Shown here: in pieces, positions 7,195-33,454 of the stretch | How positions within the stretch are numbered: position 1 is the first letter of the stretch | Layout of the letters: every line of letters starts with the position of its first letter | Origin: Planctomycetota bacterium | GTDB taxonomy: Bacteria > Planctomycetota > Planctomycetia > Planctomycetales > Planctomycetaceae | Assembly (NCBI GenBank): GCA_003388505.1 | Contig: QQVO01000015.1 | Span: 62,001 to 126,000 of the forward strand | Reading direction: 5' to 3' | DNA length: 64,000 nt | Translations under genes and position numbers: made by a program | The notes under the pieces: generated by a model | The model's database searches: none | The model's input: only the letters and a program-made list of their open reading frames with translations | Told to the model about the DNA's origin: nothing

Positions 7195-7430
7195 TCACTC
7201 TCCGCAAGATTCGATCCGCCGCCGCCGGCGTTCCTGCCCTCCATCAGGATTGTCACGTAAGTTGTTTCTATAAAAGCGCTTGCGTTCATATTCTACTGTC
7301 GAGAATGCAGCGGCAACCGGGATTGCGGGAGCTTGACCAATGCGTTACCGTCCCGCTCCTTCCCGCAGGGGGTGATCGGGAGATTGGCGCGCTGACTCCG
7401 CTCGAACGCCCGCTGCGACACAACCTACGG

Positions 7431-7548
7431 GTTCGTCAATCCAACATTTTTTTCGGGTTGAGCGGTTCGCTCGGAAGCACGAATCCCGCAGGGTTTCGTG
7501 CGGACTCGCGGTCCGGCCGACCCGAAAACAAAGCCCTGACAGGGCACT
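7431..7548. repeat. Dispersed repeat A, copy 3
   Basis: Same hairpin and tail as copy 1 (GGTTCGCTCGGAAGCACGAA, then TTTCGTGCGGA, then CCCTGACAGGGCACT). Lies between the bfd promoter and the phosphoesterase gene; 7195-7623 otherwise holds no gene. Confidence 0.8.
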
Positions 7549-7623
7549 ACCGACCGAGGCGACGGATCGCTTTCCCACCTTTTCGGCAGCCCAACTGCTG
7601 CACGGCGCATGGAGGCCCACGGT

Positions 7624-8739
7624 ATGTCCGCCGACATCACACGATTTCTGCACGCTTCCGATTTTGATCTGAGCACGCCGATGTTCGGCGTTGCCGGTCT
7701 TCCCACCGATCTCCGCCAGACGATGGCGACCGCACGCTACCGGGCCGCCCAGCGGGTCTTCGACGTTGCGGTCTCAGAGGACGTCGATTTCGTTGTGCTC
7801 TCCGGCGGAATTCTCGGCGACATCGCCGCCGACTCGCGGAGCGCATGGTTCTTCGCGAATCAATGCGAGCGTCTCTCCGCCCGTCAGACCCCTGTTTACT
7901 GGATCGAAGAAGCCGGCGCGATCGCGCAGTGGGCCGACTACGTCCCCTTGCCGTCCAATGTGTATCAAGGCGACCCGGCACTCGGCCAGCAGTTTCTGTT
8001 CGAAACCGGGCGTCGCGCGCGAGTTCGCATCATCGCTGGCAGCGATCGACGCAGGGAATCAGACGACGACGAAGCCACAATCTGCGTGCTCCCGGGTGGA
8101 CTGGAGGATCAACCCCTCTCGGCCGCGGGAGTCGACTACTGGGCGCTCGGCAGTCGCGGCGCGCCCGGCGCCGTTCCGGCCGCATGCGGACTGGCTCAGT
8201 TCGCGGGGTCTCCCCAGGGGCGAACACCCTCCGATCCGGGCCCCAGAGGCTGCCAACTGGTCACGATCGACGGCGAGAAGATCGTGCGATCGAATCTGAA
8301 GACAACGGATGTCGTCCGTTGGCACGAGGAGCGCGTGCAGGTGTCGGAAGACGCCGACTGGGATCGGCTTTGCCAACTGCTGCTCACAAGAAAACAGCAC
8401 CTCGCGCGGCTGGCGGATGCCGAAGTCGTCATGGTCCGCTGGTCGCTCTACGGCCACGGCCCGCTCTGGGAACAACTTCTGCGTGAGGAATTGTGCGAAC
8501 GGCTGGTGAACACCCTCCGCGACCGGACAAACTCGCCCGGAGCGCAGATCTGGAGCCTGGTCGTCGAGCCCGTTCCCGACCAGGAAGAGATGGACTTCTG
8601 GAAACAGTTCGAGGCGCCGTTTTCCGACGCGGGTGCCGAACGTCAGGCACACGAACCGCTGGCGGGGCCCCACTTCCCCACAAGCATTCGGCCGAGAGTC
8701 GTTCGCGAAGCCGCCCGTGTTCTGGCGGACCAGAAGTGA
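7624..8739 (+). CDS. SbcD/YhaO-like metallophosphoesterase-fold protein with degraded metal motifs
   Basis: ATG 7624 is preferred over 7609 because GGAGG (7612-7616) sits eight bases before it. The 371-aa protein has the N-terminal layout of SbcD/Mre11-type nucleases: a RFLHASDF strand-loop, a VDFVVLSGG strand-loop and a YWALGSRG segment, with an ENPFxGSPQGRTPSD-like middle (FAGSPQGRTPSD). Motif I should read DxH but is D13-F-D15; motif II should read GDxxD but is G61-G62-I-L-G-D; no GNHD motif is seen. Two-metal catalysis is therefore doubtful. The gene directly downstream encodes an SbcC-like ATPase, the usual partner, so a DNA-end binding or repair complex is likely, perhaps with a structural rather than nucleolytic subunit. 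Confidence 0.8.
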   Translation: MSADITRFLHASDFDLSTPMFGVAGLPTDLRQTMATARYRAAQRVFDVAVSEDVDFVVLSGGILGDIAADSRSAWFFANQCERLSARQTPVYWIEEAGAIAQWADYVPLPSNVYQGDPALGQQFLFETGRRARVRIIAGSDRRRESDDDEATICVLPGGLEDQPLSAAGVDYWALGSRGAPGAVPAACGLAQFAGSPQGRTPSDPGPRGCQLVTIDGEKIVRSNLKTTDVVRWHEERVQVSEDADWDRLCQLLLTRKQHLARLADAEVVMVRWSLYGHGPLWEQLLREELCERLVNTLRDRTNSPGAQIWSLVVEPVPDQEEMDFWKQFEAPFSDAGAERQAHEPLAGPHFPTSIRPRVVREAARVLADQK

Positions 8740-8823
8740 TCGCGGGGCGAGCGGCAGAGTTCGCTGCAGACCAGGCTCTTGCTTACCCCATTTTCGTCAG
8801 TTGAGAGATTCCCAGGTTGACTC

Positions 8824-11634
8824 ATGACGTCACTAAGACTCGTTGACCTCCGGGTCGATCACTTCGGACCGCTCGAAAACCTGTCAGTGACCGGCCTGAC
8901 CGGCGGGCTCAACGTGATTTACGGACCGAACGGGTCGGGAAAGACCACCCTGCTCGAGTTTCTGGCGGGCGTCTGGTGCGGTTTCGGCGACCGCGCCTGG
9001 CGGTTCCTCCAGAGCGGAGAGGGGAAAGCTGCCGGCGCCGTCACGGTGCACGTCGACGGCGGAGAGTGCGTGATTCGCCGCCGCCGCCGCGCCGGGCACG
9101 GGGACAGCCTCGCAATCCAGGGAACCGGGGACGACCTGCTGCTCCTCTCCGGCGTTCGACGGTCCCTCTCGCGTCTGGATTCTGAGCGGCTCAGACTGGT
9201 TCACAACGTCGATTCTGCAGCTCTCCACCGGGCGCACGAACTGGCCGCACTGATCGCCGACTCGCAGCACTCGCGCATCGGTGACAGCGAAGTTCCGGGC
9301 CACGAAGCAAATACGGCTGACGCTCTGGTAGCAGCCGCTCTTCAAGAACAGCAGCAACGGCTGACCGCCCGGATCGCAGCACGCCGCCGGATGCTTCAGA
9401 TCTGCGAGAGGCGCGTCGCTGAAACACACGATCGACTGGAATCTGACATTTGCCGCCTCGAAGCCGAGTGGAGGCGTCTTGACGGCGACCTGCAGGCTGC
9501 GGTGACCGACCTGCGCGAGGCGGAGCAGCAGGCGCGACCGACCGAGATTTCGAGCGATTCCGGCGACCCGACCTGGGCGGCGGCTCGAACCTCGCGTACC
9601 GATCACTCGCGCCGCATCGAGGCGCTGCGAACCGTGCTGGCCGATCTGGCGGAGGACCGGTTGCGGCTCTCGCTGGAAATCTCACGCAGCCCGCTCATTC
9701 AAAGGCCCGCACTCGACGCGAAACGGGCGCGGCTCGATGCCTGCGAGCGTGAGAACCTGCATCAGTTGGGAATTCTGCTCGATCAACAGCACCAAACGCC
9801 GCGACGGCCGCACTTCTCCCCGGCAGGCCGGCCGTCAATGCAGGCTGCCGCACCGTCCTGCCACACCGGTCGACTGGAAGCACAGGTCGACTACCTTCGA
9901 CACCGGCTGGATCATATTCGCGCAACGCTGACCGATCGGTGGCGGCAACGGGAGACCGTTCTCGCACGGCAGCGACACACCGCCGCAACCGATACGCTGG
10001 ACCGGTTGAAATACTCCCTCGCAGTGGTCGAGCAACAACTGTCCGATCTCACGGAAAATCGCAAGATCAGACTCGGCGCCGATGTGCTGGTTCGCCAGTA
10101 CCGGAGCAGCCGAACGGAGAAACGTCTCGCTGCGGCGTCGCGCTTCTTTGCGACTCTGACGGCGGACCGTTATCAGCGCTTTCGATATGACCGCGAGCAT
10201 GAGGCGCTGATGTGCCGCGACCGGCTCGGCAGCGAAATTCCGGTCGAACTCTTCAGCCGGGGTACGCAGGAGCAGGCCGCGCTGGCGTTCCGGCTCGCTC
10301 TCCTGACCGTTCCCTCACGGCACGGCGTCAGCCTGCCGGCTGTCTGGGATGAACCGCTCGCCGACAGTGACGAAGCGCGATTGGAATCGGCGGCCGCCCT
10401 CCTGGCCGACGTTGCGTCACACGGATCGCAGATCATCCTCTTCACCTGCCGCGAGAATGTCGCCGCGATTCTCGAGCGGCACGGCGCTGCCGTGCACCGC
10501 TTGGACGGCCCGGCTGACTCGCGCATCCCGGGCGACGATGACGGCACCGATTCCAAAAGATCCGGTGCAGCCGTTGCAACGAACGCAAACGCACCGGAGT
10601 CCGCGTCAGCGGAGACCGACGTGGATGACGGCGGAGCCGCCGCAACCACGGAAACCAGCGAGCCTCGGTTCCGAGTGCATCCCGCGCCCCGCCACTGGCT
10701 GGACTCCGTCGCTCCGATCTCGGAACTGCCATCCATCGGTCCGCAGACCGCCCGCCGTCTCCAACTGGCCGGCGTGGAACGGATTATCGACCTGATCGAG
10801 TTCGACCAGCAGGTCGCTCTTGAAACATTGACTGAGCAGCAGCTTGAACTGGACCAGGTCCGACTCTGGCAGGCCGAGGCGAGACTTGTCTGCTCGGTCG
10901 CAGGACTCACCGGCCGCGACGCGCAATTGCTCGTCTCCTGTGGAGTGCTTTCCCCGAAAGAACTGGCCCAGACGTCTGCCGACGATCTGATTCGCAGGAT
11001 CGACCGCCTCAGCGGCGACGCCTTCTCCAGCTCACAGCCGATTTCCAGCAGCCGGTTGCGTCGCGCCACTGTGGAGAACTGGATCGCCGCAGCCCGGCAA
11101 CCGCGCCCTCTTGAAAGACCTGCACGGCAGGACGACTCCCGCTCACTCTCCCTGGAGGCAAATCAAAAAACCGCTCCGGCGACCCGGGATGAGCTACGGG
11201 CGTTCCGATTGCAACCGCAGAGTCCCGTGGTTGACGCTCCGTCCATCGGAGAAAAGACCGCCAGACTGCTCGGGCAGATCGGCATCGTCACCGTGGCCGA
11301 CCTGCTGGCGTGCGACGTCGATCAAACCGCAGCCAGGCTGCGACTCCGCCGAGTCACTCCGAAGACGCTGACCGCCTGGCAGCAACAGGCACGGCTGATG
11401 TGCTCGGTGCCGGGACTGCGCTGCGGCGACGCGCAGATTCTCGTGGCCTGCGGCATCGCGAATCCCAGCGACCTGCAACGCATCTCTGCCTCGTCCTTGA
11501 TCGCCATCGTCGACCCGTTCGTCCGCTCGCCGGCCGGGCGGCGTCTGCTGCGATCGGCCAAACCGCCGACGGCCGAAGACGTCCAACGCTGGATCGAAAC
11601 CGTCGAGGTGAAACGCACGCTGCGGGCCGCGTGA
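8824..11634 (+). CDS. SbcC/YhaN-like AAA ATPase with two C-terminal DUF4332 domains
   Basis: A 936-aa protein. Walker A GPNGSGKTT is at residues 34-42; a long charged helical region (about 165-435) looks like the coiled-coil of Rad50/SbcC proteins; an ABC-type signature region (SRGTQEQAALAF) lies near 475 and Walker B (LPAVWDEPLAD) near 508. Two similar DUF4332 units follow a Thr/Ala-rich linker: about 628-760 (ELPSIGPQTARRL) and 800-930 (APSIGEKTARLL). These contain helix-hairpin-helix-like elements and probably bind DNA. The normal SbcC/Rad50 has no such tail. It follows the SbcD-like gene by 84 bp on the same strand and is probably its partner in handling DNA ends. Confidence 0.88.
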   Translation: MTSLRLVDLRVDHFGPLENLSVTGLTGGLNVIYGPNGSGKTTLLEFLAGVWCGFGDRAWRFLQSGEGKAAGAVTVHVDGGECVIRRRRRAGHGDSLAIQGTGDDLLLLSGVRRSLSRLDSERLRLVHNVDSAALHRAHELAALIADSQHSRIGDSEVPGHEANTADALVAAALQEQQQRLTARIAARRRMLQICERRVAETHDRLESDICRLEAEWRRLDGDLQAAVTDLREAEQQARPTEISSDSGDPTWAAARTSRTDHSRRIEALRTVLADLAEDRLRLSLEISRSPLIQRPALDAKRARLDACERENLHQLGILLDQQHQTPRRPHFSPAGRPSMQAAAPSCHTGRLEAQVDYLRHRLDHIRATLTDRWRQRETVLARQRHTAATDTLDRLKYSLAVVEQQLSDLTENRKIRLGADVLVRQYRSSRTEKRLAAASRFFATLTADRYQRFRYDREHEALMCRDRLGSEIPVELFSRGTQEQAALAFRLALLTVPSRHGVSLPAVWDEPLADSDEARLESAAALLADVASHGSQIILFTCRENVAAILERHGAAVHRLDGPADSRIPGDDDGTDSKRSGAAVATNANAPESASAETDVDDGGAAATTETSEPRFRVHPAPRHWLDSVAPISELPSIGPQTARRLQLAGVERIIDLIEFDQQVALETLTEQQLELDQVRLWQAEARLVCSVAGLTGRDAQLLVSCGVLSPKELAQTSADDLIRRIDRLSGDAFSSSQPISSSRLRRATVENWIAAARQPRPLERPARQDDSRSLSLEANQKTAPATRDELRAFRLQPQSPVVDAPSIGEKTARLLGQIGIVTVADLLACDVDQTAARLRLRRVTPKTLTAWQQQARLMCSVPGLRCGDAQILVACGIANPSDLQRISASSLIAIVDPFVRSPAGRRLLRSAKPPTAEDVQRWIETVEVKRTLRAA

Positions 11635-28184: not shown

Positions 28185-30041
28185 TCAGAAGTTGGAAGTC
28201 CACCCGAATCCATCCTTTCCCGGTGCCCAATACCATTGTCCCCCACACCAGAAGTCGATGGCTGCAACAGTCTTTCCCGTCCGTTTACAGTTGATAATTC
28301 CCCACATGTGATCGCCGACAGGCCATGACGTATCGTATCCAGTGCCTGTATAATCGAAGTAATCATCGACTGCGCCGATTACCTTGTCTATCTCGTCTTC
28401 AACATGTTGCTGGCACGCGGTGCACACTTGTCCAAAATACGAGAATCGTGCAGGTCCGCCACCTTCACTGATCCTATCGCGAGCCTTTCCGAGCGCGCCG
28501 ATGATCTCCGTAACCTCCGTTTCACACTTGCCTTTCTGAACTGGTGTTGGTAGCCCAGCGCAACATTCAGCAATAAGATGCGATGTGAGACCCTCATCTG
28601 CGGCGCGGTCCAGCGCGGCGATATACCTGATTCCGCAGTCGTTGTAGCACCTGGAGCGAGGGAGAATCCAAAAGTGTTTGGACAAGCAGTTCTCCATACA
28701 GGCGACTAGCGCATCTTCGCATTCCGTGTTTGTAGAACAGTCGTCAAGCGTAATGAGGCCTGAAGCATCGGTCAGGTTCAACGGATTGTTGAGGACAAAC
28801 GTGTAGCAGTTTGCGACCGCATCGAGCAAGACTGAAGTGACGTCGCAGAGTGGATCAATACTCAACCATTGTCCTTGGCCTGGATGGTAGGCCCGAGCGC
28901 GGACGTACATCTGCCCATACACTTTGTTGGTGAAGTAGCCATGCGCACCGCTGAAGCCAAATGAAGACTCCGTTGTCCCCAAAGTGACGAGGCGCCTGCC
29001 CCAAGCGTCGTATAGTCGCTGGGCCGTGGTGGTTTCATTGGAGTCAGTCAGTTCCCTAGTCGATCCGATTGCGTCGAAGTGAAAATAGTGAGCCTCGGTG
29101 TCCCGCCTCTGGCTGACCAGGTTCCCGTACAGCCGGGGCTCATTCGTGTACACCACCTGCGTGTCGTCGTTCTCATCCGTCTCCGCCAGATAGTTCTGTC
29201 CGTCCCACACGAACTTCTTCGTGCCGGTCGACTCCTCCAGCTTCACCCGCAGACCGTCCGGTTCGTAGGCCATCGTGTTGCGGACGCCTGACGGGAGTTG
29301 AGCCGAAGTCATCCGGTTCTCGTAATCCCACACGTACGTCGTCCGCTCGCCGGAGGGCTGCTCGACGACCTCCTGGTTGCCGTCCGCATCGAACGTGTAC
29401 GTCGTCCGGCCGGAGGCGTCCTCGCTGTAGATGATCTGATTCGCCGCATCGTAGCTATAGCTGGTCCGGGCGCCGTCGTGGATCTTCAACAGCCGGTTTC
29501 CGGCCGGGTCGTAGGTGTAGGTGTCCCGGTAGGCATTACTGCCGGTGCGGTGTTCTCCGGTGAGCTGGTAGGTGGCGTCGTAGCTCCAGGTGACGCGGCT
29601 GCCGTCCGCCTCCAGGACAGCCGTGCGGTTGCCGACCTTGTCGTAATCGTAATCGAAACTGGAGATCGTTGTGCCGTCGCTCTTGAGGTTGGCCAGCCGG
29701 GTGAGATTCCCAGCAGCGTCGTACGAGAACGACGCCCGCGTGCCGTTCGCCAGTTTCTTGACGGTCCGCCGTCCGGCCGGATCGTAGCCGTACGTCGCCC
29801 GCTCCCTCTGCGGGTTGACGACTTCCTTGATGCGGTTCACCGAATCATACGCGTAGGTGAACCGTCCCCCGTCCGGATCGGTCATCCCCACACGGTTGCG
29901 GACCGAAACATAACGAGCAGGTGACGGACTACTTCGGACTTTCCATGATCCTGCACTCCAATACTTGAATCCATCCGTTGTTCGCGTTCGACCTGACGCG
30001 CTACGGTGAATTGAGATCGCGCAAGGCACTTGAAGACCCAC
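28185..30041 (-). CDS. Rhs/YD-repeat core fragment with Cys-rich tip B (orphan)
   Basis: Residues about 46-370 are YD repeats and the Rhs-associated core (repeats of GRxTxYxYDxxGN type, then GQWLSIDP...NNPLNLTDASG). They are nearly identical to the core of the Rhs gene at 31562-33454. The first 45 residues do not match Rhs, overlap the 3' end of the propeller gene by 41 bp, and are probably not real, so the fragment is 5'-truncated; an internal GTG or ATG near 29895 may be used, or it may be silent. After the core an unrelated tip of about 190 residues holds some 14 cysteines and ends DGFGWTSNF. Architecture fits orphan Rhs tip modules that feed tip exchange. The toxic activity is unknown. 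Confidence 0.75.
   Translation of the reverse strand: MGLQVPCAISIHRSASGRTRTTDGFKYWSAGSWKVRSSPSPARYVSVRNRVGMTDPDGGRFTYAYDSVNRIKEVVNPQRERATYGYDPAGRRTVKKLANGTRASFSYDAAGNLTRLANLKSDGTTISSFDYDYDKVGNRTAVLEADGSRVTWSYDATYQLTGEHRTGSNAYRDTYTYDPAGNRLLKIHDGARTSYSYDAANQIIYSEDASGRTTYTFDADGNQEVVEQPSGERTTYVWDYENRMTSAQLPSGVRNTMAYEPDGLRVKLEESTGTKKFVWDGQNYLAETDENDDTQVVYTNEPRLYGNLVSQRRDTEAHYFHFDAIGSTRELTDSNETTTAQRLYDAWGRRLVTLGTTESSFGFSGAHGYFTNKVYGQMYVRARAYHPGQGQWLSIDPLCDVTSVLLDAVANCYTFVLNNPLNLTDASGLITLDDCSTNTECEDALVACMENCLSKHFWILPRSRCYNDCGIRYIAALDRAADEGLTSHLIAECCAGLPTPVQKGKCETEVTEIIGALGKARDRISEGGGPARFSYFGQVCTACQQHVEDEIDKVIGAVDDYFDYTGTGYDTSWPVGDHMWGIINCKRTGKTVAAIDFWCGGQWYWAPGKDGFGWTSNF
29040..29905 (-). repeat. 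Direct repeat of Rhs core, copy 1
   Basis: About 0.86 kb highly similar to 32555-33410 in the same orientation. Similarity ends abruptly at GCGGAC near 29905 and fades after the RSTREL-encoding region near 29040. Long enough for homologous recombination between the two Rhs genes. Confidence 0.8.
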
Positions 30042-31536
30042 TTTCCCTGAGCCTCATTTGCAACAGAGTGTAGTCCAGCGCATATAACTGCCCCTTTGTG
30101 GGCACGTAAAGCACCCCATCGGATACTTCGGGCGATCCGATCAGTAGTTCGTCAAATTCGAGAACGGCAATCTTTTCCATGTTCTCATCAGCCGTCACGC
30201 CCAGCAAACCATCCAATGTCGGAATCCACAACACGCCATCCGGTGTAACACACGGAGATGGGAATCCATTCAATCGTGGACCATTGATCACGTCCAGCAG
30301 TGATTTTCGGCATTCACCTGTCACCCGGTCGACGGCGAAAATGGACCCTGTGTCCTCGCTGACGGTGAACACGTGCGGGCCATGGACGATCGCACGACTG
30401 TACGTGCAGTCAAAGTCACGATCGTGGAACTTCCACGCAGCCGACGCCGTCAATCCGTCTCCATGCCGAAGAGACACCGCGACCAGCGGCGAATCAAGTG
30501 TTTTCCCATACAGATCAGTTGCCAAGCCGACATAGATGACGTTCTCGTCGATCACCAACGGGGCTACAAAGAAGCACCGAGTTCCCCTCTCTCTCGTCCA
30601 GTAGGTGGCACTTGGTTTGTTCAGATCAAGTTGGGTCTTCAGTTCGCCTGTCCGAGCTGCAAAGCAGTACAGAATTCCGTCTCCTCCAGGAAATACGACA
30701 ATCGGTTCGGGCCCGCCAGTCCACACAACCGGAGATGACCAGGAGTACACCAGATTCAGCCCTGGCGCCTTGCTCGACCAGACGACATCGCCAGACGAAC
30801 GCCGTACCGCGATAAAGGACGGGGCGTTTGGCGCTCGAATACGATCCACGCCAGTAGGACCGCTTTCCTCGAATGCTCGCCCATTTCCCGTCACACAGAA
30901 GACCATGTCTTCCCACACGCACGGACTGCATGCTGGATTGCCGCCACTCGAGTCAACTCGGTAAACACCAAGTTGCGAGATCATATCAAGCTTCCAAACG
31001 ACATCGGCCGCCGGTAGATTTGCCCCCGCTAGCGCGCTCCCCATGGGATATTTGGCAACGCCGTCATCCTCACCATCGGCGAATCCGTGAATGTCGAGAC
31101 ACACCAGTTCGCCACGATTGCTTACGTAGAAGACTTGCTCGGAGTCAATTGTTGGGCGTGACATCACGCCCAAGAATGATTGGCAAAAAGAGTCATCGTT
31201 GTCTCGGTGGCTGTGAGTGATGTGCCAGAGCAATTCTCCTTGTTCTGCATCTATGTAGACTACTGCTCCTCGGGCACTTCTCGCACCGCCGCCCGTTTCT
31301 CGACCATTTCGAAGCGCACTAGTTGCAACGACAACCCCATCGTCCGCGATGGAGATCTGCGCTGCCGCATGTCCGATTGGATGCCTCCATAAAACACACT
31401 CATTACCGTCCTCTCCCAGTGTGATATGAGTGACTGCGGTTGCATCTTGTCCCGACGCAGTTCGGAGAGACTGAATGCTGGAAGCCAGAACAATGGCAAC
31501 CCAAACAACAGAACCGACCATATGTGATGCTGGCAT
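30001..31536 (-). CDS. Exported PQQ-type beta-propeller protein in the Rhs locus
   Basis: ATG 31536, 25 bp after the stop of the upstream Rhs gene, gives a Sec signal (MPASHMVGSVVWVAIVLASS); longer in-frame starts would run into the Rhs gene. The 511-aa product has propeller blades of the BamB/PQQ type (VVYIDAEQGELLWHI, GILYCFAARTGELKTQLDL, GSIFAVDRVTGECRK). No quinoprotein active-site residues can be assigned by eye. It is AT-richer than the core genes. Its place right after an Rhs tip is where an immunity gene is normally found, but a propeller of this size would be unusual in that role; it may instead bind or display the tip at the cell surface. Confidence 0.75.
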   Translation of the reverse strand: MPASHMVGSVVWVAIVLASSIQSLRTASGQDATAVTHITLGEDGNECVLWRHPIGHAAAQISIADDGVVVATSALRNGRETGGGARSARGAVVYIDAEQGELLWHITHSHRDNDDSFCQSFLGVMSRPTIDSEQVFYVSNRGELVCLDIHGFADGEDDGVAKYPMGSALAGANLPAADVVWKLDMISQLGVYRVDSSGGNPACSPCVWEDMVFCVTGNGRAFEESGPTGVDRIRAPNAPSFIAVRRSSGDVVWSSKAPGLNLVYSWSSPVVWTGGPEPIVVFPGGDGILYCFAARTGELKTQLDLNKPSATYWTRERGTRCFFVAPLVIDENVIYVGLATDLYGKTLDSPLVAVSLRHGDGLTASAAWKFHDRDFDCTYSRAIVHGPHVFTVSEDTGSIFAVDRVTGECRKSLLDVINGPRLNGFPSPCVTPDGVLWIPTLDGLLGVTADENMEKIAVLEFDELLIGSPEVSDGVLYVPTKGQLYALDYTLLQMRLRESGSSSALRDLNSP

Positions 31537-31561
31537 GCTGAACACCGTTGTCTTCCACGAT

Positions 31562-33454
31562 TCAGTTGGATGGCGGGAGTGTTTTCCCAGCGGAGGGAAG
31601 TCCGTCTGGACATGGCCCCTTGTTGGGGTCACCGGGATGCAACTGTGCGATAAGATCACACAGTTCAGAAGCAACGTGGTCCACATCGTACCAATTCGTC
31701 GGAACAAAGTGAGTGCTCCCGCCATCAATACACCCCCCCAGCGTATGTTCGTGGATGCCGACGACGAGCGGACAGAATTGAAAGTACGATTGATCTTCTC
31801 CACAAGTGCTGTTACGAATCTGCACGTTGACAAGCGTGGTCAAGGCATTGTTCCACGGATCGGCCTTTACGCCCACCTTGCCATGACAACCCACGTATCC
31901 CACACCGCCGTCACCTTTGAACGGACCGTCGCGTCTGTCGCACCGGAAGAAGCTAAGTACGATTTCGAGATCGAACGTGCAGCAGGTATTCGGGTCGGTT
32001 ACGCCAGTTTGCCTAAACGTCTGGGGGAGATGGTATTGCTTTATCCAACGATAGTCCTGCTGTCTATCAGGATCATATGGCACCTTCTCCGGAAACGGCA
32101 CAATTGGTAAGTCCACAATGCCGTTACGCGAGCAAGGAAGGAAGACTGCTTTCGACAGATCACACCCGGGACACCATGGAGGGCATGGGTCGACAGCTTC
32201 GGGGAGCACAATCTTTACACTTGGCCCCCCATTGGCAATTTGTGAAGGGGGCGGTGGCGGGACATCCGGAGGGAGTGGTTGCCAACCGGATGGGTCAAGC
32301 GCCATAGTCGGGGCGTTCTTGACGTAAGCATACGCATTGAGGACACGCATGCGCCCTGCTGCATCCACTGCCATCCATGAACCACGAGCCGGAATATAAC
32401 TACGAGCGCGTACATACATTCCACTCCAGTCCACCTGACTATAATAGCCAACTTGGCCGAAGCTCAGAAAAACGAATGACGTCGATCCAGTGGAATGCAA
32501 GACAGCACCCCAGGCATCATAGAATCGAGTGTCTGTGACGATCTCACTGGAATCGGTGAGCTCCCTCGTCGACCCGATCGCGTCGAAGTGATACCAGTGC
32601 GTGTCACTCCTCCGCCTCTGGCTGACCAGGTTCCCGTACAGCCGCGGCTCATTTGTGTACACCACCTGCGTGTCGTCGTTGCCGTCCGTCTCGGCCAGGT
32701 AGTTCTGCTCGTCCCACACGAACTTCTTTATGCCGGTCGATTCCTCCAGCTTCACCCGCAGGCCGTCCGGCTCGTAGGCCATTGTGTTGCGGACGCCTGA
32801 GGGAAGCTCTACGAGCGTGGTGCGGTTCTCGTAGTCCCAGCTTGTCGTCGTGCGGTCAACACTCGGCTCGACCACCAGTTCCTGGTTGCCGTCCGCGTCA
32901 AACATGTACGTCGTCCTCCCGGAGGCGTCTTCACTCCACTCAAGCTGATTGGCCGCATCGTAGCTGTAGCTCGTCCGGGCGCCGTCGTGGATCTTCAGCA
33001 GCCGGTTTCCGGCCGGGTCGTAGGTGTATGTGTCCCGGTAGGCGTTGCTGCCGGTGCGGTGTTCGCCGGTAAGCTGATAGGTATCGTCGTAACTCCAGGT
33101 GACCCGGCTACCGTCCGCCTCCAGCACGGCCGTGCGATTGCCGACCTTGTCGTAGTCGTAGTTGAAGCTCGAAATCGTCGTGCCGTCGCTCTTGAGATTG
33201 GCCAGCCGGGTGAGATTCCCAGCAGCGTCGTACGAGAACGACGCCCGCGTGCCGTTGGCCAGTTTCTTGACCGTCCGTCGACCGGCCGGATCGTAGGCGT
33301 ACGTCGTCCGCTCGCCCTGCGGGTTGACCATATGAGTCATCCGGTTGACCGAATCGTAGGCGTACGTAAATCGTCCGCCGTCGGAATCAGTCATGCCCAC
33401 GCGATTGCGGACGGAGTCGTAGCGGTAAGAGATGGTTTTCCTGGTGCCGGCCAT
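31562..33454 (-). CDS. Short Rhs/YD-repeat protein with Cys-rich tip A
   Basis: ATG 33454 is fixed by a strong ribosome-binding site (AAGGAGG six bases upstream). The 630-aa product begins almost at once with YD repeats (KTISYRYDSVRNRVGM), so it lacks the long N-terminal shell, signal peptide or PAAR domain of full Rhs toxins. The core ends in YVRARSYIPARGSW...LDPSGWQPLPP, followed by a Pro-rich hinge and a tip of about 220 residues with over a dozen Cys (PCPPWCPGCDLSK onward). The tip is AT-richer than the core and unrelated to tip B. Rhs proteins deliver toxic tips to neighbours; with no delivery domain here, the route of export is unclear. Confidence 0.82.
   Translation of the reverse strand: MAGTRKTISYRYDSVRNRVGMTDSDGGRFTYAYDSVNRMTHMVNPQGERTTYAYDPAGRRTVKKLANGTRASFSYDAAGNLTRLANLKSDGTTISSFNYDYDKVGNRTAVLEADGSRVTWSYDDTYQLTGEHRTGSNAYRDTYTYDPAGNRLLKIHDGARTSYSYDAANQLEWSEDASGRTTYMFDADGNQELVVEPSVDRTTTSWDYENRTTLVELPSGVRNTMAYEPDGLRVKLEESTGIKKFVWDEQNYLAETDGNDDTQVVYTNEPRLYGNLVSQRRRSDTHWYHFDAIGSTRELTDSSEIVTDTRFYDAWGAVLHSTGSTSFVFLSFGQVGYYSQVDWSGMYVRARSYIPARGSWMAVDAAGRMRVLNAYAYVKNAPTMALDPSGWQPLPPDVPPPPPSQIANGGPSVKIVLPEAVDPCPPWCPGCDLSKAVFLPCSRNGIVDLPIVPFPEKVPYDPDRQQDYRWIKQYHLPQTFRQTGVTDPNTCCTFDLEIVLSFFRCDRRDGPFKGDGGVGYVGCHGKVGVKADPWNNALTTLVNVQIRNSTCGEDQSYFQFCPLVVGIHEHTLGGCIDGGSTHFVPTNWYDVDHVASELCDLIAQLHPGDPNKGPCPDGLPSAGKTLPPSN
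32555..33410 (-). repeat. Direct repeat of Rhs core, copy 2
   Basis: Partner of 29040-29905. Recombination between them would remove about 3.5 kb and join tip B to the well-translated start at 33454. Confidence 0.8.

Follow-up and report, generated by a model that had tools for sequence, protein, structure and literature searches.

How much of the biology of Mre11-Rad50 complexes requires cutting, and how much requires only the ATP-driven holding of DNA, is a standing question. It is raised again by a pair of genes in a 64,000-nucleotide stretch of the genome of a Planctomycetota bacterium (assembly GCA_003388505.1, contig QQVO01000015.1, positions 62,001 to 126,000 of the forward strand; the whole stretch is referred to here as the window). 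The first gene encodes a phosphoesterase subunit and the second an SMC-like ATPase, an arrangement that a reading made from the letters of the DNA alone (the sequence-only reading) had described as an SbcD/SbcC-like pair with a catalytically degraded nuclease. What could such a pair do once its nuclease has gone? The answer that we consider probable is that the first subunit is an old, selected pseudo-nuclease that gives structural support to an SMC-like, DNA-binding ATPase, in a complex that holds, bridges or senses DNA without cutting it. The strongest step of this reading concerns catalysis: judged from the residues present, the old site has very probably lost its metal-dependent cleavage. 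Literature searches of Creative Commons-licensed PubMed Central text found no earlier description of this pseudo-nuclease pair.

Fold and active site of the phosphoesterase subunit

The gene for the subunit and its altered motifs lie at the following positions.

7624..8739, + strand: Mre11/SbcD/YhaO-fold pseudo-nuclease (371 amino acids), with nuclease domain, capping domain and two short C-terminal helices
7660..7668, + strand: degenerate motif I, Asp-Phe-Asp (DFD) for Asp-x-His, from the alignment with 32 intact homologues
7804..7821, + strand: degenerate motif II, GGILGD for GDxxD, the metal-bridging Asp (D49 of P. furiosus Mre11, PfMre11) being replaced by Gly
7900..7917, + strand: position of GNHD, here WIEEAG; equivalents of metal ligand N84 and catalytic H85 absent
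8149..8160, + strand: position of GHxH, here GSRG; equivalents of H206 and H208 absent

The reading frame is open from 7609 (7609-8739, + strand, 376 amino acids), and the ATG at 7624 was taken as the start because the start of the closest relative matches it. The protein could be tied to its family only by way of its relatives, a family profile and structure prediction. It had no Pfam match at the Pfam cut-off, Metallophos PF00149 included (the sole hit, E 0.13, is a chance one), NCBIfam and PADLOC gave zero matches, the SbcD model TIGR00619 included, and phmmer against the PDB returned chance matches only. An AlphaFold2 model built from 42 sequences had a mean predicted local distance difference test score (pLDDT) of 86.2 and a predicted template modeling score (pTM) of 0.83, and its top Foldseek matches in the PDB were Mre11 and SbcD, in agreement with the earlier claim that the fold is kept. 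Compared with Mre11 (3av0_A), the model gave a Z score of 23.0 over 273 residues at 4.1 Å; the first 39 structural matches were exclusively Mre11/SbcD (Z 19.7 or higher), phosphoesterases of another kind began only at Z 17.1, and the matched part comprised residues 1-320, i.e., the nuclease and capping domains. A profile of the family also matches PfMre11 by sequence (E 1.8e-8), and in that alignment the family consensus has Asp at D49, His at H208 and Gly at H206, with N84 and H85 replaced by other residues. The label SbcD/SbcC is loose, since the subunit has no NCBIfam SbcD match and the ATPases resemble YhaN (AAA_27) more than SbcC.

In PfMre11, metal 1 is held by D8, H10, D49 and H208 and metal 2 by D49, N84, H173 and H206, while H85 is the catalytic His. 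Equivalents of these eight residues were scored in all homologues, the PfMre11 numbering having been checked for five of them. Aligned with the 32 intact homologues, the window's protein keeps one of the eight. The three motif changes named by the sequence-only reading (DFD, GGILGD and the missing GNHD) are all present; the extent of the loss had been understated, as GHxH has become GSRG and the motif-IV His has also gone, which brings the total to seven lost.

Origin, spread and selection of the degenerate copies

For comparison, 59 genomes were searched, and loci in the related ones supplied 76 homologous phosphoesterases; as the set was built from loci matched to the window's proteins, intact copies unlike the window's protein are under-counted in it. 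The active-site score was bimodal, with 8/8 in 32 of the 76, at most 4/8 in 44, and none at five to seven. Among the degenerate 44, four residues were kept in one copy, three in two, two in five, one in seventeen (the window's included) and none in nineteen, one of which is a fragment. The recurrence of the degenerate pattern in 44 of 76 homologues means that the loss in the window is not due to chance, and the loss is shared with orthologues, the point that the sequence-only reading had proposed to check by alignment. In an unrooted tree of 75 rows (fragment L088 left out; bootstrap not fully settled), a single branch (support 100/99) separates the intact class from the degenerate one, and the Shimodaira-Hasegawa-like approximate likelihood ratio test gave 97 for the same branch after removal of the eight ligand columns and their neighbors. 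If the tree is rooted within the intact class, the loss would fit one origin.

The degenerate class also carries marks of its own, with a Trp at one column in 41/44 copies (0/32 intact) and at a second in 36/41 (1/32 intact). Such conservation is at odds with the notion that these are functionless, decaying genes. Decay would account for the loss of catalytic residues, for the long branches and for the occurrence of some ATPases with a DUF4332 tail but no adjoining phosphoesterase; however, the frames are open, the ATPase motifs are intact and the ratio of nonsynonymous to synonymous substitution rates (dN/dS) is low, so that decay is hardly credible. Between genomes G049 and G057, the degenerate pair gave a dN/dS of 0.056 for its subunit and 0.067 for its ATPase, and the intact subunit gave 0.062; four further close pairs gave 0.032-0.085, and two distant pairs 0.17 and 0.29. 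In these close pairs of relatives, the degenerate subunits are under purifying selection.

Between the window's protein and its closest relative, in G036, 47% of core positions are identical as against 1/7 ligand positions, indicating that the fold has been held while the old site drifts. Similarly, in the larger pseudo-A group the conservation of ligand columns (0.138) is below that of core columns (0.302), and none of 28 scored pseudo-A copies has a His at the H206 position. Drift of this kind argues against a subunit that has remained a nuclease or phosphatase dependent on metal, with different ligands in the same pocket. An Asp at the motif-I His position and a Glu at the Asn84 position of the window's protein could be read as such ligands; yet neither the closest relative nor the pseudo-A group conserves the replacements as it does the core, and the catalytic His is missing in all 52 of the Pirellulales-type relatives considered below, which makes this explanation improbable.

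A scan of genome contigs recovered 57 related loci, all with planctomycete titles, including Rhodopirellula baltica, Blastopirellula marina and one "Phycisphaerae" metagenome-assembled genome. Fifty-two of these relatives were usable, L129, L180, L183, L184 and L158 being left out as fragments or duplicates. D8 was kept in 51/52, H10 in 49/52, D49 in 46/52 and H208 in 44/52, whereas N84 was kept in 2/52, H85 in 0/52 and H173 in 16/52; H206 was found in 0/52, a figure biased because these relatives were recovered in part by a pattern requiring Gly or Ser at that position, a bias that does not affect the 28 pseudo-A copies above. With the metal-1 ligands mostly kept and the metal-2 ligands and catalytic His gone, the loss looks stepwise, and on their residues these relatives would be non-catalytic forms with one metal. 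The closest relatives of the window's protein have lost the remaining ligands as well: in the seven phosphoesterases adjoining DUF4332-tailed ATPases, D8 was kept in two and H10, D49 and N84 in none. The steps are linked by sequence matches, as the window's subunit is 27% identical to that of R. baltica over 286 residues (E 7e-30), which in turn is 27% identical to an intact copy over 294 residues (E 5e-26). The R. baltica (L175) and B. marina (L150) subunits share with the window's a degenerate lineage, the loss of the catalytic His and N84, and an adjoining ATPase; they differ in keeping D8, H10, D49 and mostly H208, and in an ATPase tail that is acidic and proline-rich instead of DUF4332.

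Degenerate copies occur in 38 of the 59 genomes: in the collected set, degenerate copies alone were present in 18 genomes, both kinds in 20, intact copies alone in 10, and neither kind in 11. Intact copies added later, typed by eye, were of YhaO type in G027 and G055 and of SbcD type in G014 (two), G029 and G045; with these, 14 of the 38 degenerate-bearing genomes were without a detected intact SbcD or YhaO, one of them (G036) being only 78% complete. A weak TIGR00619 match in G004 (L191) and weak hits in G036 lie outside this tally. The genome of the window is 98.76% complete. An intact YhaO-type query found only the two degenerate genes in it, TIGR00619 had no match there (13 of 14 control genomes were detected), and no SbcD-type gene was among the eight stretches read of its 12 Metallophos hits. 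The second of these genes belongs to another pair of degenerate phosphoesterase and YhaN-like ATPase, on contig C8 (L039:4693-9261), which keeps 0/8 residues and belongs to a group widespread among genomes of the family. The possibility of a link with Ku-dependent end joining was dropped; Ku is found in 10/59 genomes and is absent from that of the window.

The ATPase and its DUF4332 tail

The ATPase gene follows the phosphoesterase gene after a gap of 84 bases, both being on the + strand.

8824..11634, + strand: SMC/Rad50/YhaN-like ATPase with short coiled coil and tandem DUF4332 tail (936 amino acids)
8923..8946, + strand: Walker A, GPNGSGKT
10252..10275, + strand: ABC-type signature motif, FSRGTQEQ
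10333..10353, + strand: Walker B, LPAVWDE
10729..11100, + strand: DUF4332 (PF14229) copy 1, with helix-hairpin-helix (HhH) motifs
11239..11601, + strand: DUF4332 (PF14229) copy 2

Its N-terminus matches AAA_23 and AAA_27 (PF13514, 26.7 bits; cut-off 22), and Walker A, signature and Walker B are distributed over two halves of the head, which a coiled coil connects. Both Walker motifs had been noted by the sequence-only reading; they read GPNGSGKT and PAVWDE, and the signature FSRGTQEQ can be added to them. The AlphaFold2 model of the ATPase is of low confidence (pLDDT 66.8, pTM 0.37) and was used for the general layout only; in Foldseek the heads match SMC and Rad50 structures, with Lamassu and Jet structures also among the matches. 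The signature motif is at residue 477, whereas that of the genome's second pair is at about residue 958; the coil of the window's ATPase is accordingly much shorter. A CxxC hook is absent from it and from nearly all YhaN-type relatives; two DUF4332-tailed ATPases have a zinc-hook-like CxxC in mid-coil, CPTC in G036 (L057, residue 358) and CANC in G014 (L054, residue 353).

The two DUF4332 domains that the sequence-only reading placed on the ATPase are of HhH type and were recovered as a match of 105.2 bits (gathering threshold 23.2; E 3.2e-30) in two stretches, the sole matches to DUF4332 in the window's genome. Strong as the likeness to DUF4332 proteins is, the window's copies differ in being fused to an SMC-like ATPase. 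Relative to G036, the tail is 49% identical and the ATPase part 32%. By script, a Walker A-bearing ATPase gene adjoins 39 of the 44 degenerate copies (the misses are L074, L089, L121, L123 and L125) and 52 of the 57 relatives, three of the five misses there being at contig ends. DUF4332-tailed ATPases were found in 10/59 genomes (G000, G004, G005, G011, G014, G015, G027, G028, G029 and G036); the tail thus marks a small subset and not the whole pseudo-nuclease lineage. In G027 the contig ends upstream of the tailed ATPase, and in G015 (L051) a gene named by eye as Hsp70-like lies upstream of it. In G011 (L056:4529-7988), ATPase and DUF4332 tail occupy two overlapping reading frames, either a real split gene or an assembly frameshift.

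Possible roles and the surroundings of the pair

Among known systems, Mre11-Rad50 and SbcD-SbcC (PDB 3av0, 1ii7, 6s85) share with the pair the predicted nuclease and capping fold, the order of phosphoesterase then SMC-like ATPase, and the three ATPase motifs. They differ in their two-metal site and catalytic His, both lost from the window's pair, and in its lack of an NCBIfam SbcD match, very short coil without zinc hook, and added DUF4332 tail. The clearest sequence relatives are pairs of the YhaO-YhaN type (intact L068, L114 and others), a name that comes from Bacillus. These have identical gene order and an AAA_27-type ATPase without zinc hook, and many genomes have both intact and degenerate pairs; unlike the degenerate kind, the intact kind keeps 8/8 residues (32/32) and occupies its own side of the tree. 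For human MRN, PMC12446458 describes an ATP-dependent clamp that senses DNA uncut, in a nuclease-inhibited 'sensing state'. The likeness lies in a Mre11-Rad50 clamp on DNA with the nuclease idle, and the difference in that the MRN nuclease is intact and shielded, whereas that of the window is lost in sequence. Tethering by Rad50 coils and hook is treated as separate from cutting in a review (PMC7260605), and a fused Mre11/Rad50 of Mimivirus with one His changed is described in PMC3175470.

We envisage the pair as one branch of an old planctomycete Mre11/SbcD/YhaO-like lineage that would have lost its nuclease and kept its ATPase partnership. The SMC/Rad50/YhaN-like ATPase would dimerize on ATP and clamp DNA, a dimer of the pseudo-nuclease would brace the ATPase heads as Mre11 does, and the HhH motifs of both DUF4332 copies would add a sequence-independent grip on DNA. 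The planctomycete complex would then be locked in a mode without cutting, and in the window's line HhH domains would replace long coils. DNA binding by the complex is likely, and DNA-end tethering or sensing, as proposed by the sequence-only reading, is something we infer; a role at DNA ends specifically is the weakest step, a guess that we regard as rather doubtful.

Several observations weigh against this reading. The coil of the window's ATPase, far shorter than those of YhaN-type relatives and without a CxxC hook, weakens a model of long-range tethering. The last 50 residues of the pseudo-nuclease, the Rad50-binding region in Mre11, are short and have a pLDDT of about 50. Acidic residues stand at some of the lost ligand positions of the window's protein and could form an alternative metal site. 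The DUF4332-tailed ATPases of G015 (L051) and G028 (L053) have no upstream phosphoesterase. Finally, purifying selection was measured on relatives of the window's gene, whose own single dN/dS (against G036) is 0.29, with synonymous divergence near saturation.

The main rival, which we think unlikely without dismissing it, is a chromosome-organizing complex instead of one for repair or end sensing, namely a small SMC-like clamp whose Mre11-fold dimer would take the structural place held by other proteins in SMC complexes. It would accommodate the intact SMC-type ATPase motifs, heads matching SMC as well as Rad50 structures, the tandem HhH tail, the persistence of the pair in genomes without a detected intact SbcD or YhaO, and a housekeeping-like setting, with a ferritin-like gene upstream of the pair in both the window and G036; however, nothing links the genes to segregation genes. 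An anti-phage or anti-plasmid defense system related to Lamassu or MADS is very improbable. PADLOC, scanned with the two proteins of the pair, gave weak matches of the ATPase to mad3 (E 3e-12) and LmuB (E 2e-8), and Lamassu and Jet were among its structural matches, but these matches reflect the shared SMC-type ATPase, the phosphoesterase having none in PADLOC. The presence of degenerate copies in 38/59 genomes is usual for housekeeping genes, and the products of the four neighboring window genes that were tested are a ferritin, a BFD-like protein, an RNase HII-like protein and a peptidase of family M50. Apart from the pair, every neighbor family at the 57 related loci is confined to at most 11 of them, so that gene context offers no functional clue.

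If the pseudo-nuclease is a structural partner as proposed, planctomycetes may have evolved a second, non-cutting Mre11-Rad50 branch in which metal 2 and the catalytic His were lost first and metal 1 later in some lines, the fold became purely structural, and tandem HhH domains that bind DNA took over from the long coil in the window's ATPase. The non-cutting kind would seemingly be the only one in some species, this one included; taken as a whole, this scenario has in our view slightly less than an even chance. The loss of the metal-binding site beside an ATPase that looks intact suggests that a whole bacterial lineage keeps a Mre11-Rad50-like machine for holding or sensing DNA and not for cutting it. 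Evolution appears to have run a separation-of-function experiment, with one-metal intermediates and no-metal end points, often beside an intact copy, and the structural role thereby becomes testable in the culturable R. baltica and B. marina.

Two further features of the window may be mentioned. An intergenic interspersed repeat of about 100-120 bases at 7425-7560 has at least 41 matches in its own genome, itself included; the other copies are 80-94% identical (40 scored of 213 first-look candidates), and shuffled versions fold less well than the repeat when treated as single-stranded DNA (z -2.8 for the repeat). It looks like a repetitive extragenic palindromic (REP) element or miniature inverted-repeat transposable element (MITE). 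On the - strand, 28185-33454 encodes two similar YD-repeat proteins (RHS-like, named by eye) in a stretch of lower G+C content (0.56 compared with about 0.63).

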